Made by a program: the position numbers and the translations under genes. 64,000 nucleotides of DNA. Source: an uncultured Bacteroidia bacterium (GTDB taxonomy: Bacteria > Bacteroidota > Bacteroidia > Bacteroidales > UBA932). Positions 1,728 through 8,797 of this stretch are shown here, piece after piece. The notes under the pieces were generated by a model that did no database searches, was not told the origin of the DNA, and saw nothing but the letters and a program-made list of their open reading frames with translations. Position 1 is the stretch's first letter. Every line of letters starts with the position of its first letter. Location: positions 1-64,000 of the forward strand of contig CADCHE010000011.1 in assembly GCA_902801205.1 (NCBI GenBank), in the 5' to 3' direction.

Positions 1728-2648
1728 CTAGCGCATTTCCGTGTAGGGAATCTTGTCCATGTCGCCATAGTCGAGGTTCTCGCCGGCCATGCCCCAGATG
1801 AACATGTAGTTGCTGGTGCCCGCCGCCGCGTGGATCGACCACTCGGGCGACATCACCGCCTGTTCGTTGGACAGCCAGAGCAGTCGTTCTTCCTGCGGTT
1901 CGCCCATCAGGTGGCAGATCCGGTTGCCCTGCGGGACATTGAAATAGAAGTAGGCTTCCACGCGTCGTCCGTGCGTGTGCGCCGGCATGGTGTTCCAGAC
2001 GCTGCCCGGTTTCAGTTCCGTGAGGCCCATCTGCAGCTGGCAGGGGCCCTCTTCCAGGACATTGTTGACGATCAGCTGGTTGATGACGCGGTCGTTGCTC
2101 TCTTCCATCTTTCCGGCCGGGAAGGAGTTGGCCTTCAGGCTGCCGTCGCGTCCATCGATGGTGATCAGCTGGGTCTTGTATTCCTTGTGTGCCGTGGCGG
2201 AGTTGAGGTAGAACTTCGCCGGTTTCGCGGCGTTCTTGCTCTGGAAGGTCACGTCCTTGTGGCCGCGGCCGACATAGAGCGCGTCCTTGAAGTGCAGTTC
2301 GTAAGACTGTCCGTCCACGGTGACGATGCCGTCACCGCCCACGTTGATGATGCCCAATTCCCTGGAGAACAGGAAATAAGGGGCTTTGAGCGCGTCGATG
2401 GACTCGAGTTTCAGGGCCTTGCCTACAGGCATGGCACCGCCGAAGATGAGACGGTCGTACATCGAATACGTCAGCAGGATCTTGCCCGGGGCCATCACTT
2501 TTTCCATGATGAAGCTGTCGCGGAGACGCTGCGTGTCGTAGTTTTTGACATCATCGGGGTGGCAGGCCCGCTGGATGGTCCAGGATGTTTGCGCGCCTGC
2601 GGACACGATGCACAGCAGTGCGACGGCGGTAGTGAGGATTCTTTTCAT
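1728..2648 (-). CDS. kduI: 5-keto-4-deoxyuronate isomerase with a signal peptide
   Basis: KduI converts 5-keto-4-deoxyuronate to 2,5-diketo-3-deoxygluconate (DK-II) in the breakdown of pectin, alginate-like or glycosaminoglycan uronates. The family is recognised by [21 protein letters not shown] near the start and by the cupin metal site H224, H226, E231 and H273. As I recall, the zinc ligands of the E. coli enzyme are H196, H198, E203 and H245, so every ligand is shifted by exactly 28. The 306-residue length is also 28 more than the usual 278. The extra 28 residues begin with [20 protein letters not shown], a convincing signal peptide with a likely cut at A-G-A-Q. KduI is normally cytosolic, so this version is probably exported to the periplasm. 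The start overlaps the end of the EIIC gene by 4 bases (ATGA), so the two are translationally coupled. Confidence 0.93.
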
Positions 2649-4054
2649 ATTCCGTTTTCTTTTGTTGCTTGCATGAGAAGGGTTTCCTTGATGATGCGCC
2701 GGCGGTTGATGACGGCCAGCACGGTGGTCAGGATGACGAGCAGGGCGCTCCCGACGATCTTGAGGTCATGGACGCAGTGGAAGATGATCCAGGAGAAGAT
2801 GCTGGAGGCGAAGTCCAGCGAACCGCCCAGGAATCCTTCCGGAATCTGCACCGCGGCGTCGCCCGTCCGGGCGAATACGTCCTGCGCCGCCTGTGTGAAG
2901 AAGGGGGCGAGGTCGGTGACGAAATACAGGCCCACCACCAGGGCGACGAGGCCGATAAGGAAGGTCTTGACGACATTGCCCTTCGTGTAGGGGAGTACCA
3001 CCGGGAAGAGGTAGAACAAGCCCGCGAGCGAGGCCAGCGGCAGGAATTCGTTGCCGGGCAGGATCACGGACAGGAAGAGGATCACGGGGATCAGCAGCAG
3101 GGAGACGACCAGGGTGGTCGGATGGCCGATCACCAGGGCCGGACTCATGCCGATGTTGAAGCCCGCGGAATGCTTGAACTTCCTTTCTACCAGGCTCTTG
3201 GTCGCTTCTGCGATGGGTTTCAGCCCTTCGATGAAGAGGGTCGTGATCCGGGGAATCAGCTCCATCACCGCGCCCATCTTGATGCCCAGGCCGAGGATCT
3301 TCGGGATGCTCTGCACGACCTCGCTCCAACTGCGGCAGGAAAGTCCGCCGATCAGGCAGCCGACGAGGACGCCCAGGAAGAGCGGCTCGCCCAGGATGCC
3401 GAATTTCTTCTTCATCCCTTCCGCGTCGATGTCGAGACGGTCCATGCCGGGAATCTTGTCCATCGCCTTGCCGAGCACGACGGCGAAGGGGACGAATCCC
3501 TGGCAGAACGGCTGCGGGATCGAGATCCCGTCGACATCTTTATAGAAGGCCTGGAAATCCTTGGTCGTCAGGTCGGCCATCACGAGCGTGATGATGAAGC
3601 AGATGACGGCGGCGAAGAAGCCCCACCAGATGCTGTCCGTCGCGAAGTACACCACGGCGCCGATGAAGGCGTAATGCCAGTAGTTCCACAAGTCGATGTT
3701 CACGGTCTTGGTCGCGCGCAGGAGCAGCAGAAGGATGTTGATGCCCAGGCAGACCGGGATGATGAAGGCGCCCACGGTGGTGTTGTAGGCGACGGCCGCG
3801 GCCGCGGGCCAACCCATGTCGAAGATGCCGAGGTTGAGGTGGTAGATGTCCGCCATCGCCGCCAGGGGAGCGCCCAGGCTGCTGGTCAGCAGGGCCGTCA
3901 CGACGGAGAGACCGACGAAACCGACGCCCACCTTCAGGCCGCTGCCGAGGGCTTTCCCGGGTTTGATGCCGATGCAGATGCCGAGGATCGTGAAGATGAC
4001 CGGCATCATGACCGCGGCGCCCAGTCCGATGATATAGCTGAATACTTTTTCCAT
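2645..4054 (-). CDS. galactitol-type PTS EIIC membrane transporter, without EIIA/EIIB
   Basis: This 469-residue protein is nearly all membrane helices, about a dozen. The start [25 protein letters not shown] and the phrases [20 protein letters not shown] and [20 protein letters not shown] are typical of the EIIC of galactitol systems (GatC family). In a normal PTS an EIIB domain phosphorylates the sugar during uptake. No EIIA, EIIB, HPr or enzyme I gene is near, and most Bacteroidota lack a full sugar PTS. It sits between kduD (21 bases upstream) and kduI (4-base overlap), which points to a deoxy-keto-uronate as substrate. Transport without phosphorylation is inferred, not shown. Confidence 0.85.
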
Positions 4055-4075
4055 ATGTCGTCCGATTTCAGGATG

Positions 4076-4882
4076 TTACGGCTGTTTGCCGATGTAGGCG
4101 AGGATTCCGCCGTCCACGTAGAGGATCTGTCCGTTCACGGCGTCGGATGCCTTTGAGGCGAGGAACACCGCAGCCCCTCCCAGTTCATCCGGATTGAGCC
4201 AGCGGCCCGCAGGCGTCTTCGCGCAGATGAATGCGTCGAAAGGATGCCGGCTGCCGTCCGGCTGCTTCTCGCGCAGGGGAGCGGTCTGCTGGGTGGCGAT
4301 GTAGCCGGGGCCCAGGCCGTTGCACTGGATGTTGTAACCGCCGTATTCGGAACAGATGTTCCGGGTCAGCATCTTGAGCCCGCCCTTCGCCGCAGCGTAG
4401 GCCGACACCGTCTCGCGGCCCAGTTCGGACATCATCGAGCAGATGTTGATGATCTTCCCTTCACGGCGCTCCATCATCTCGGGCACCACGGCGGCGGAAG
4501 CGATGTACGGTCCCACCAGGTCGATGTCGATGACCTGCTGGAACTGGGCGCGTGTCATCTCATGCATCGGGATGCGCTTGATGATGCCGGCGTTGTTCAC
4601 GAGGATGTGGATGGGGCCGATCTCGGCGTGGATTTTCTCGACCAGCGAGGCGACGGCCTTCTCGTCGGTGACATCGCAGATGAAGCCGCTGACGTTCTCG
4701 ATGCCGGCCTTCCGGTAGTTTTCCAGACCCACTTGGAGGTTCTTCTCCGTACGGCAGTTGAAGATGATGTGGTCCGCGCCGGCAAGGGCGTACGCCTTGC
4801 CGATTTCGAAACCGATGCCGTATGCGCCGCCTGTGATCCAGGCATTTTTCCCTTTCAAGGAAAACAGATTCAAGTAATTCAT
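4076..4882 (-). CDS. kduD: 2-dehydro-3-deoxy-D-gluconate 5-dehydrogenase, SDR family
   Basis: This is a classical short-chain dehydrogenase of 268 residues. The NAD(P) motif is TGGAYGIGFEIG near residue 16, NNAG comes near residue 95, and the catalytic Ser, Tyr and Lys are in CSMMSELGRETVSAYAAAKGG. The start was set at the ATG giving MNYLNLFSLKGKNAWITGG; an in-frame upstream codon would run through the promoter. KduD reduces DK-II to 2-keto-3-deoxygluconate, the step after KduI. No signal peptide is present, so it should act in the cytosol. The closely related gluconate 5-dehydrogenases cannot be excluded by sequence alone, but the kduI neighbour supports KduD. It is the first gene of the operon. 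Confidence 0.88.
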   Translation of the reverse strand: MNYLNLFSLKGKNAWITGGAYGIGFEIGKAYALAGADHIIFNCRTEKNLQVGLENYRKAGIENVSGFICDVTDEKAVASLVEKIHAEIGPIHILVNNAGIIKRIPMHEMTRAQFQQVIDIDLVGPYIASAAVVPEMMERREGKIINICSMMSELGRETVSAYAAAKGGLKMLTRNICSEYGGYNIQCNGLGPGYIATQQTAPLREKQPDGSRHPFDAFICAKTPAGRWLNPDELGGAAVFLASKASDAVNGQILYVDGGILAYIGKQP

Positions 4883-4900
4883 TCCGTATCGTTTTGTTTT

Positions 4901-4932
4901 CAAATATACAATCGTTTGCATTAATTTGCAAA
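4901..4932 (-). promoter_or_regulatory. promoter of the kduD operon with overlapping palindrome
   Basis: On the minus strand TTTG (4929-4932) and TATATTTG (4901-4908) are 20 bases apart. The palindrome TTTGCA-N6-TGCAAA at 4915-4932 covers the -33 element. This is a good place for a repressor to bind, but the regulator is not identified. Confidence 0.75.
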
Positions 4933-4960: not shown

Positions 4961-5509
4961 TCAGCAAACCTCCTGCAGGGCGCCCGTCGCGGAGTCGATG
5001 ATGAATCCGCGGACCGTGACGTCGCGGGCCATCAGCGGATGCTCCCGGATGGTGGCCACCGTACGGCGGACCGAGTCCTCCGTGTCATGGAATCCTTCCA
5101 GCCAGGCGTCCAGGTCGACGTCGCTGCGCTGCAGCGCCTCTTCCGGGATGCCCCGCCGGCGCATCTCCTCCCGGAAGTGCCCGAAGGACATGTGGCAGGC
5201 CCCGCACGCGGTGTGCGCCACGACCATGATTTCCTCCACGCCGAGCTCGTAGACGGCCACGATGAGGCTGCGCATCGCCGAATCCCATGGGGAGGGGACG
5301 AGCGCGCCCGCGTTCTTGATGATCTTGGCATCGCCGTTCTGCAAACCCAGCGCCTCCTGCAGCAGGACGGACAGCCGGGTGTCCATGCAGCTGAGAACCG
5401 CCAGTTTCTTGTCGGGGAACTTGTCCGTCAGGTGCGCCTCGTATCCCTTCGAAGCGACAAATCCGCGGTTGAACGCGAGTACATCATCGATATTGCTCAT
5501 GGGGGTCAT
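4961..5509 (-). CDS. beta-class carbonic anhydrase
   Basis: The protein has 182 residues and interconverts CO2 and bicarbonate in the cytosol. The beta-class zinc site is intact: Cys41 in SCMDTR with the Asp43/Arg45 dyad, then His99 and Cys102 in AHTACGAC. The motif KIIKNAGALVPSPWDSAMRSL is also typical. Length and layout match the short, clade-C-like bacterial enzymes. A second in-frame ATG (MSNIDD) lies three codons in and could be the true start. It is read away from the exported glycosidase gene and looks like its own unit. It may serve fermentative bicarbonate supply, but nothing here ties it to the kdu operon. Confidence 0.92.
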   Translation of the reverse strand: MTPMSNIDDVLAFNRGFVASKGYEAHLTDKFPDKKLAVLSCMDTRLSVLLQEALGLQNGDAKIIKNAGALVPSPWDSAMRSLIVAVYELGVEEIMVVAHTACGACHMSFGHFREEMRRRGIPEEALQRSDVDLDAWLEGFHDTEDSVRRTVATIREHPLMARDVTVRGFIIDSATGALQEVC

Positions 5510-5689: not shown

Positions 5690-8600
5690 ATGAAAAAGAC
5701 GTTCCTCCTGCCGGCGATCCTGCCGGCGCTCCTCCTCATCCTCGCCGCAGGCACCGTCCCGCTCCGCCCCGAATACGGCGCATCCCCTGACATCTGGCCC
5801 GGGAAGGGCGCCGGCACGGAGAAGGGCGTGGAATACACATACGGCTGCCCCGATGCGCCCTGGGAAGAATCCCTTGGCAACCACCGCGCCGTGATCCGCG
5901 TTCCCCGCGCCGCCCGGTCTGCGCATCTGGTCTATCACTGGAGAAGACACGGAGAAAGCGTCGCCGACCACCGCTTCCTGCTCATCGACGCCGCCAGCGG
6001 AGACACCGTCCGGAACGTCCTCCGGCAGCGGGTAGACAACGAAGTGTGCGACATCGTCTTCGGACCGGTGGAAAAAGGGACCTATTATTTCTATTATCTG
6101 CCCTATACCGTGCACCAGGGATTCGGGTATTGCCAGAACCAGTACCTGCCCGCGGAACCGGCGCCAGCCCCTGAATGGGACGCCGGAACCCCTGTCCCGG
6201 CGAAAGTCCGCCGCGTCGAGTCACGGACGGTCTCGGACTCCTTCTTCCCGATGGAACTGCCCGCCTCGCCCGCCGAGCGGGAGCGCTACCTCGCCGCACA
6301 GGGAGGCAGGGAAGGCCGCCTGCTCGTCTTCCCGGAAGACCGGAAATACCCCGCTGCGATGCGGACGGAGATTCCCGTGCGCTGGCTGCGGACAAAGCAG
6401 GGGAGCGGATTCCGCGGAACGGCGGCGCCTGAGGAATACTATGCCTTCCAGGTGTGCGTATGGGCCCCGGATGCCCCGGTCGGAAAACTCTCTTACCGCA
6501 TGACGGATCTGCGCCGGGGCGACGACGTCATCCGCGCCTCGGCCGTCACCTGTTTCAATACCGAAGGCATCGGCCCGTACGGGGATCCCGTTACGTTCGA
6601 TGTTACCGTGCCGCAGGGAAGCGTGCAGCCCCTCTGGTTCGGCGTCGATCTCCCGGCCGGCCTGCATAAGGGTACTTACAAAGGCACGTTGACCCTGCAG
6701 GACGATGCCGGCCGGACGGCCGAAGTGCCCGTTGCCTTGAAAGTGAAAGGGAAGCCCCTCGTGGCGCGCGGCGATGACGAGCCCTGGCGGCACAGCCGCC
6801 TGCGCTGGCTCAATTCCCGCCTCGGGCTCGGCGACAAGCCGACCGCTCCCTATGTACCGATGTCCTATTCCGGCGACACGGTCCGCTGCCTGGGCAGGGA
6901 GGTCGCCTTCGACCGCGCTTCCGGCGCGCCGCGCCAGATCCGCGCCTGGGGACGTGACATCCTCTCCGCACCGCTGCGTTTCTCGGTCGTCACCGGCGGG
7001 AAAGAATGCTTCGCCCCGGCCGAGATCAGCGGTCTCGACCTGACGGCAGGAGCCCTTACCGGTCAGGGTATCAGCCATTTCCAGGACTTCGACCTCCGTT
7101 TCGACGTCCGTTTCGAGTTCGACGGATGGCTCTGCACCCGCTATACGATCGAACCCCGGAAAGAACTCTCCATCGATGATGTCCGTCTGGAGATCCCCGT
7201 CAAGGAAGACATTGGACGGTATTTCATGGGCCTCGGCCTGCACGGGCAGGAGACGCCCCGGTCCTTCACCGGCGGTTGGGACGGTCCTGTGACAACGGTC
7301 GACGCCGCCGGACGGAATGTCCCGAAGCCGGAGGGCGACGATCTTCTCTGGCCCTTCGACGGCTGCTGGATCGGCCGGGCCGAAGCGGGGCTCCAAATCG
7401 ATTTCCGGGGGGCATCCTACACCGGACCGCTGCTGAATGTCTATCATCCGGCCTATCCCGACAGCTGGTACAACGGCGGGAAGGGCCGCTTCTCGATCCG
7501 CAGGACTCCCGGGACCGTCCGGCTGACTGCCAGCGGCGGCGCGCGCACCCTGGCTGCCGGTCAGCCGCTCTCGTTCGAATATGCAATGGTCATCACTCCG
7601 GTGAAGGAAGTGCCGGCCGCGGCGCGTTTCACCGACCGCTATTACCATACCGGCGATCCGGCTACGCTCAAACCCTCCGACGACGTGATCGCTTCCGGCG
7701 TACGGGTCGTGAACGTCCATCACGGCACGCCGGTCAACCCCTTCATCAACTATCCTTTCCTGACCCAGGATACCCTCAGCCGCTTCACGGCCGACCTGCA
7801 TGCGAAGGACGTCAAGGTGAAGATCTATTATACCGCCCGCGAACTGAGCAATGCGCTGCTCGAGATCTGGGCGCTCCGCAGCCTGGGTCACGAAGTGCTC
7901 AGTGCCGACAACGGCCTCGCCCCGGGCAAAGGCCATCCCTGGCTGCAGGAACACCTGGAAGGAGACTATACCCACCAGTGGTACCACCATTTCGACTACG
8001 ATGTGCCGGGGCACCGCAGCGCCGACGCCGCCCTGCTGACGGCGGAAGGGAATTCCCGGTGGTTCAATTACTACGTGGAGGGCCTGGCCTGGGTGATCCG
8101 CAACCTTGACGTGGACGGCCTGTACATCGACGATGTCACCTTCGACCGTCGCATTCTCAAGCGGATGCGCCGGGCGATGGAAAGCGTGAAGCCCGGCTGC
8201 CTGATCGACCTGCACTCCAATACCTGGTTCTCCAAGGGGCCGGCCGTTCAGTACACGGAGATCTTCCCGTATATCGACAAGATCTGGTTCGGCGAGTCAT
8301 TCCAGTACAATGCGATGAGCCCGGCCTGCTGGCTGGTCGAGTGCTCCGGCGTGCCCTTCGGCCTGCCGGGCGAAATGCTTCAGGACGGTGGAAACCGTTG
8401 GCTGGGCATGCAATACGCGATGACCGCCCGTCTGCCGTGGAGCGGCGACAGCGATCCGCGTCCCGTCTGGAAGGTCTGGGATTCCTTCGGTATCGCCGAT
8501 GCCCGGATCCGCGGCTTCTGGGAAGACGCTCCCGTGGCACAGGCCTCCGACCCTGACGTGAAGGTGACGGCGTATGTCAAAAACGGCCGGACGCTCCTTT

Positions 8601-8797
8601 CCATCGGCAATTATGCCGATACGCCCCGGACGGTCTCGCTCCGTCTCGACTGGGCGCAGCTGGGGCTGGATCCTTCCCGCTGCGTGTTGCGCGCTCCCGA
8701 GGTGGACCGGTTCCAGCCGGAGGCCTCCTGGCAAGTCGGAGACCGCATCACCGTGGCTCCGAAACGGGGATGGTTGATCTATGTCGAACCTAGATAA
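5690..8797 (+). CDS. large exported glycoside-hydrolase-like protein (DUF6067 type)
   Basis: The product has 1035 residues and starts with a signal peptide (MKKTFLLPAILPALLLILAAG). The N-terminal half is beta-rich, with a segment around 270-360 that reads like the immunoglobulin-like part of DUF4091/DUF6067 proteins (FNTEGIGPYGDP, WFGVDLP, LHKGTYKGTLTL). The C-terminal half looks like a TIM-barrel glycosidase. It contains VKIYYTARELSN, then DVDGLYIDDVTFDR near residue 807, with Asp residues placed like catalytic acids at the end of a barrel strand, and DLHSNTWFSKGP. A small beta domain closes the protein. Such proteins resemble GH123-like enzymes and probably cut a complex glycan in the periplasm or on the surface. 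The substrate is unknown. It lies 12 bases before the phosphodiesterase gene and is likely co-transcribed with it. Confidence 0.75.
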   Translation: MKKTFLLPAILPALLLILAAGTVPLRPEYGASPDIWPGKGAGTEKGVEYTYGCPDAPWEESLGNHRAVIRVPRAARSAHLVYHWRRHGESVADHRFLLIDAASGDTVRNVLRQRVDNEVCDIVFGPVEKGTYYFYYLPYTVHQGFGYCQNQYLPAEPAPAPEWDAGTPVPAKVRRVESRTVSDSFFPMELPASPAERERYLAAQGGREGRLLVFPEDRKYPAAMRTEIPVRWLRTKQGSGFRGTAAPEEYYAFQVCVWAPDAPVGKLSYRMTDLRRGDDVIRASAVTCFNTEGIGPYGDPVTFDVTVPQGSVQPLWFGVDLPAGLHKGTYKGTLTLQDDAGRTAEVPVALKVKGKPLVARGDDEPWRHSRLRWLNSRLGLGDKPTAPYVPMSYSGDTVRCLGREVAFDRASGAPRQIRAWGRDILSAPLRFSVVTGGKECFAPAEISGLDLTAGALTGQGISHFQDFDLRFDVRFEFDGWLCTRYTIEPRKELSIDDVRLEIPVKEDIGRYFMGLGLHGQETPRSFTGGWDGPVTTVDAAGRNVPKPEGDDLLWPFDGCWIGRAEAGLQIDFRGASYTGPLLNVYHPAYPDSWYNGGKGRFSIRRTPGTVRLTASGGARTLAAGQPLSFEYAMVITPVKEVPAAARFTDRYYHTGDPATLKPSDDVIASGVRVVNVHHGTPVNPFINYPFLTQDTLSRFTADLHAKDVKVKIYYTARELSNALLEIWALRSLGHEVLSADNGLAPGKGHPWLQEHLEGDYTHQWYHHFDYDVPGHRSADAALLTAEGNSRWFNYYVEGLAWVIRNLDVDGLYIDDVTFDRRILKRMRRAMESVKPGCLIDLHSNTWFSKGPAVQYTEIFPYIDKIWFGESFQYNAMSPACWLVECSGVPFGLPGEMLQDGGNRWLGMQYAMTARLPWSGDSDPRPVWKVWDSFGIADARIRGFWEDAPVAQASDPDVKVTAYVKNGRTLLSIGNYADTPRTVSLRLDWAQLGLDPSRCVLRAPEVDRFQPEASWQVGDRITVAPKRGWLIYVEPR

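Follow-up and report, generated by a model that had tools for sequence, protein, structure and literature searches.

A predicted periplasmic KduI and an orphan galactitol-type EIIC as candidate parts of a divided uronate pathway in Bacteroidales

The window analysed here, a 64,000-nucleotide stretch of DNA from an uncultured Bacteroidia bacterium of the order Bacteroidales (GenBank assembly GCA_902801205.1, contig CADCHE010000011.1, positions 1 to 64,000), encodes a tight minus-strand unit of three genes: a short-chain dehydrogenase/reductase (SDR) comes first and is followed by a GatC-type membrane component (EIIC) of the phosphotransferase system (PTS) and by the isomerase KduI. The best explanation for this unit, to which we assign a probability of about 0.7, is a pathway split across the inner membrane, as put forward in an initial reading of the sequence (hereafter the original prediction) and supported by our analysis: periplasmic isomerisation of 5-keto-4-deoxyuronate (DK-I) to 2,5-diketo-3-deoxygluconate (DK-II), PTS-independent and hence phosphorylation-independent import of DK-II, and cytosolic reduction. 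The sequence basis of this reading is a signal-like N-terminus on KduI, a conserved gene pair, missing PTS partners and the enzyme neighbourhood, and from these we infer the location of KduI, DK-II as the cargo and the direction and energy coupling of EIIC. In such a pathway, hydrolases of the glycoside hydrolase (GH) types GH88/GH105 would release unsaturated uronates from pectin or glycosaminoglycan fragments in the periplasm, where these would open to DK-I and where exported KduI would convert DK-I to DK-II; the orphan EIIC, as an elevator-type carrier of the GatC/UlaA fold lacking PTS partners, would then import unphosphorylated DK-II, which the cytosolic SDR would reduce to 2-keto-3-deoxygluconate, with KdgK and KdgA completing the route. 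DK-I bears free aldehyde and keto groups (PMC12269599), so its early removal may be one reason for isomerisation outside the cytosol. The features of the unit are as follows:

1728..2648, minus strand: KduI with Sec-type signal peptide, 306 residues, predicted mature form from Q20 (above the equivalog model NF002091, 389 bits against a cut-off of 250; PF04962)
2592..2648, minus strand: part of the KduI gene encoding the predicted signal peptide, 19 residues (signal-like N-terminus in the sequence)
2645..4054, minus strand: GatC-type EIIC without EIIA/EIIB, 469 residues (PF03611, E 8e-78, 262.7 bits against a cut-off of 24.2; below the GatC model TIGR00827, 362 bits against a cut-off of 542)
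2645..2648, minus strand: ATGA overlap of the EIIC stop and the KduI start, seen in the sequence
4076..4882, minus strand: SDR dehydrogenase without signal peptide, 268 residues (above the PRK07097 'gluconate 5-dehydrogenase' model NF005488, 441 bits against a cut-off of 369)

The first 23 residues of the window KduI resemble a classical Sec signal, as the original prediction had noted, although the extension is shorter than the 28 residues then claimed: alignment with E. coli KduI (1x8m) gives an N-terminal extension of approximately 20–22 residues, with chain residues 4 and 198 as the partners of residue 24 and H224, respectively. The shift of 28 claimed for the metal ligands does hold, in the natural residue numbering of E. 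coli KduI, but it is not entirely N-terminal, since it includes a net 6 residues from an internal insertion. The residues H224, H226, E231 and H273, presumably the metal ligands, are invariant in all 11 aligned proteins and align with E. coli KduI in a structure-chain alignment, in keeping with the view that the enzyme is intact. The fold and the metal ligands are shared by E. coli KduI (1xru/1x8m) and the two B. ovatus enzymes KduI2 (9kd0) and KduI1 (9kcz). Unlike the window KduI with its signal-like N-terminus, E. coli KduI and, judging by its sequence, KduI1 belong to the signal-less kind; the absence of a signal is a property of other KduI members, not of the KduI fold. The closest solved chain to the window KduI is 9kd0 (E 7.9e-160), a crystal structure dated 2025-10-29, and the match starts at window residue 20, which corresponds to chain residue 2. 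The title of 9kd0 concerns glycosaminoglycan metabolism and is silent on export, any signal on KduI2 itself being putative, and no paper on this structure was found in the open-access literature searched.

In a sample of 393 genomes from the order of the window, EIIC-GAT was found above cut-off in 10 genomes (with one further weak match, G326) and KduI in 103: the ten best KduI matches, whose start falls on position 1 or 2 of the extended model, came from exactly the ten EIIC genomes, and in each of these KduI lies directly behind EIIC. A wider scan gave at least 541 confirmed EIIC stretches, and the best 80 of these, together with the window and nine loci from the order sample, make up the 90 EIIC loci considered below (about 88 distinct, as L023/L102 and L024/L045 are probably the same genomes pairwise). 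KduI is present in 86 of the 90 loci, and in 85 of the 89 fetched loci, as well as in the window, it lies no more than 3 kb downstream of EIIC, in the same orientation; thus, the arrangement is not peculiar to the genome of the window. Using a simple signal rule, KduI was signal-like in 86/86 EIIC loci holding KduI, in close and more distant relatives alike, versus 0/81 KduI proteins outside EIIC pairs (L007 and 80 others from the order survey; a further 21 KduI matches, partly fragments and starting at model residue 7 or later, stand outside this comparison set). A chance signal on KduI is thereby rejected. Counted per hit, 86 of 89 KduI matches at EIIC loci pass, the three failing being a C-terminal fragment (L039), the C-terminal piece of a broken gene (L076) and a paralogue remote from EIIC (L072). 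As controls, 43 of 47 members of an exported pectin enzyme cluster passed the rule, against 0/26 KdgK and 0/17 KdgA proteins.

If the N-terminal extension were no working signal, KduI would be cytosolic, and export is indeed predicted here with a crude rule. Against this stand signal-like N-termini that are kept across the 86 loci though their sequence varies, their complete absence among the 81 other KduI proteins, and the L072 paralogue (L072:14201-15124), a copy inside the exported clade that is located away from EIIC, beside genes that we read as mannonate-type, and is without signal; we therefore hold a cytosolic location to be very improbable. In a careful KduI tree (71 of 166 rows), the exported/non-exported labelling needs three changes. 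Forcing the L072 copy into a single clade with the 27 exported rows is not rejected, with p-AU 0.334 for the careful tree and 0.779 for the quick tree, so that one origin followed by one loss is possible and independent origins of exported KduI are not required. Among the loci is one from a record titled Paenibacillus sp. metagenome-assembled genome (L105), which resembles the Bacteroidales loci and is perhaps mislabelled.

The genome of the window (2.47 Mb, 98.7% complete) exhibits one match each for PTS_IIB, EIIA_2, HPr and Enzyme I, all within one cluster on contig 4 (L006:3495-7005): this is a complete PTS consisting of HPr, Enzyme I and an EIICBA whose naming as mannitol-type is our reading. 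The ptsH, ptsI and gatA/gatB search suggested in the original prediction thus gave a divided outcome, with Enzyme I and HPr present and neither gatA nor gatB found in this genome, where PTS_IIB and EIIA_2 match only inside the mannitol-type EIICBA; together with the lack of any IIA/IIB gene beside the window EIIC, this bears out its description as a galactitol-type EIIC without EIIA and EIIB. PTS_IIB and Enzyme I gave no match in nine of the ten EIIC genomes of the order sample, the exception in both cases being the genome of the window; these nine genomes are 86–99% complete and the same searches were positive in E. coli and other controls (the EIIA_2 search covered the genome of the window only). 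In addition, no GatA/GatB-like genes were found in the 90 EIIC loci at E 0.001, a search that recovered 12/12 gat loci as positive control. Without an Enzyme I match, a standard PTS cannot drive EIIC in the nine genomes, unless the assemblies miss it.

The window EIIC has the fold of GatC and UlaA of the ascorbate-galactitol PTS: its predicted model (pLDDT 81) matches GatC best (PDB 9u82, TM 0.76/0.79) and UlaA less closely (4rp8, TM 0.67/0.70). Unlike those proteins, it is without EIIA/EIIB, is paired with KduI rather than with gatAB and has the aspartate of HP3 replaced. For comparison, 13 loci were fetched out of 452 EIIC-matching plasmid records, 12 with IIB beside EIIC and one without; aligned with eight GatB-partnered EIICs, the window EIIC has 27–37% identity to seven and 25% to the remaining one. 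Among charged sites, the difference between orphan and GatB-partnered proteins is clearest at position 304, which is Ser in 88/90 and Thr in 2/90 orphan EIICs versus Asp in 12/12 GatB-partnered ones. This Ser304 is set by hhalign on Asp314 in HP3 of UlaA, a substrate-binding residue (PMC6048161), whilst MAFFT is off by two columns. The exchange is compatible with a different substrate or with a loss of phosphoryl transfer and proves neither.

These results also bear on the possibility that EIIC is an ordinary PTS component using EIIB/EIIA borrowed from elsewhere in the cell. The Enzyme I, HPr and mannitol-type EIICBA of the window's genome would allow for this, but neither PTS_IIB nor Enzyme I is matched in 9/10 EIIC genomes, for which borrowed partners were rejected unless the genes are missing through incomplete assembly, and the HP3 aspartate is replaced in all 90 orphan EIICs; we consider borrowing extremely improbable. 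This Bacteroidales EIIC branch has instead probably left the PTS to become a stand-alone DK-II carrier fed by periplasmic KduI, in bacteria without Enzyme I. In a sample of the phylum, EIIC-GAT was found above cut-off in 3/395 genomes, all from the order of the window, with one more weak match (G423). As a separate observation, a single reading frame of 888 residues (L097:6735-9401) encodes a fusion of EIIC with a DUF4861 domain that begins in a signal-like manner; DUF4861 occurs in 15/90 EIIC loci, in several of them between SDR and EIIC, and may therefore belong to the same periplasmic step.

The SDR is separated from EIIC by 21 bases and the ATGA overlap of EIIC and KduI is likely to be translational coupling, as suggested previously. 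The first gene is indeed a signal-less SDR, but its earlier label as KduD does not stand, given that it falls below the KduD model (TIGR01832, 193 bits against a cut-off of 338.85) and passes that of PRK07097, being the sole match above cut-off among 11 PRK07097 matches in the genome of the window. From the clusters described in PMC12838403, it would be a DhuD-type reductase: kduI-dhuD is listed there as a hybrid cluster type (type E) of Bacteroidota, which like the unit in the window combines KduI with a KduD/DhuD-family reductase. Unlike in those clusters, the reductase and isomerase genes are separated here by a 1.4-kb EIIC gene, and KduI has the appearance of an exported protein; the words 'signal' and 'PTS' gave no match in the main text of PMC12838403 as available, in which the phosphotransferase system is mentioned for streptococcal disaccharide import.

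Gene neighbours place the EIIC-KduI pair in uronate catabolism: across the 90 EIIC loci we counted SDR in 44, an ExuT-like transporter of the major facilitator superfamily (MFS) in 40, KdgK in 28, KdgA in 26 and GH88 or pectinesterase in 19, with at least one of MFS, KdgK, KdgA and SDR in 76 loci, although many stretches are short. SDR, EIIC, KduI, KdgK and KdgA occur together in one fetched stretch, strand ignored, in 21/90 loci, of which 16 are without an ExuT-like MFS in the stretch. Among the species with an EIIC-KduI locus are P. vulgatus, B. xylanisolvens and B. faecis; in the first and the last of these, the EIIC, KduI and MFS genes adjoin and face pectinesterase genes and a GH88-family gene whose product bears a signal. 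In B. thetaiotaomicron, by annotation only, BT4107 is a PTS IIC and BT4119 a pectate lyase. The genome of the window holds three PF07470 (GH88) matches, the third of them weak, all in genes with signal-like starts, and one of these genes lies in a pectin locus alongside GH28, pectinesterase, SusC and SusD. Also located beside the unit in the window are a carbonic anhydrase (4961-5509) and a GH123 N-terminal family protein (5690-8797; PF19543, 1094 bits). A 541-residue open reading frame at another locus (L023:8049-9674, also L102) combines a signal-like N-terminal part, beta-helix-type in our reading, with only the C-terminal part of an SDR (window residues 69-269) and is a chimera without the NAD-binding start.

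E. coli KduI has a side activity on hexuronates, and exported KduI could act mainly on another uronate, for instance converting galacturonate or glucuronate to the ketouronate, with EIIC importing that product. Some loci do carry uxaA/uxaB-like genes (UxaA in 6/90), but the presence of SDR, KdgK and KdgA nearby is in line with DK-II, and E. coli KduI shares the metal ligands, leaving this explanation distinctly improbable.

Several observations weigh against periplasmic isomerisation and import of DK-II through EIIC. The signal rule is crude, as 24/35 SDRs pass it too, probably by virtue of their Rossmann strand, and it is thus not specific where Rossmann proteins are concerned. Four of the 90 loci lack KduI: two are at contig ends (L034, L050), L052 shows no KduI within the 17 kb stretch that holds EIIC, and L106 none in a fetched stretch that ends 1.4 kb after EIIC; in L098 and L099, approximately 1.7 kb of other sequence separates EIIC from KduI. 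UlaA, a carrier of an acid, retains the HP3 aspartate, so the Asp change alone is no mark of PTS independence; taken as proof of lost phosphorylation, the change from Asp to Ser was rejected as only suggestive. An EIIC-GAT on an Enterobacter plasmid (L216:1965-3386) has a ribokinase and rpe nearby and no adjacent EIIA/EIIB, yet keeps the HP3 aspartate; this is perhaps another EIIC that works with a kinase. The ExuT-like MFS of the 40 loci is a possible importer of DK-I, and in the genome of the window a second KduI, without signal, adjoins such an MFS together with kdgK and kdgA, so that unisomerised DK-I may also enter the cell; the one SDR above the PRK07097 cut-off would then have to serve both routes.

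The same transporters raise the possibility that KduI is truly exported but only draws DK-I away, while EIIC transports a different monomer, be it DK-I, galacturonate or some other sugar of pectin, and DK-II enters via the MFS. The frequency of the MFS and its position beside a signal-less KduI in the genome of the window speak for this, but 16 of the 21 stretches with the full gene set are without an ExuT-like MFS (which may lie elsewhere in the genome), and it is EIIC that signal-bearing KduI tracks, whilst the MFS of the window's genome adjoins the signal-less copy. A different cargo for EIIC is thus rather unlikely in our view, and under the favoured reading, import of DK-II by EIIC, the MFS and signal-less KduI would form a parallel, conventional entry route.

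The original prediction regarded a PTS membrane domain acting without phosphorylation as a new use, which holds in part. GatABC and GalABC move xylose unphosphorylated by facilitated diffusion in evolved E. coli (PMC10989795), so the mechanism proposed here, in which a GatC-type EII carries unphosphorylated cargo, has precedent; those systems keep their EIIA/EIIB genes and are laboratory-evolved, whereas here the partners are naturally missing in many species. In the open-access literature searched, we found no natural, PTS-less, lineage-wide case of a phosphorylation-independent EIIC, nor a description of an exported KduI or of such an EIIC as a DK-II carrier. In B. thetaiotaomicron, GH88 is located in the periplasm, and its product reportedly enters metabolism in the cytoplasm (PMC6994673). 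In the excerpts available, the literature on Bacteroides has periplasmic unsaturated uronate feeding the cytoplasm, or monomers being imported, and leaves the uronate carrier unnamed; for heparin monosaccharides, a review names the putative hexose transporter BT4653.

Many gut Bacteroidales seem to run one step of pectin and uronic acid breakdown outside the inner membrane and to import the product via a PTS membrane protein that is devoid of its phosphorylation partners, an arrangement that would account for the uptake of this sugar acid. If our reading is true, the EIIC-KduI pair would supply a carrier for unsaturated uronate in known gut species and would represent a natural EIIC uncoupled from phosphorylation. 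The label 'PTS galactitol IIC' can mislead metabolic models.

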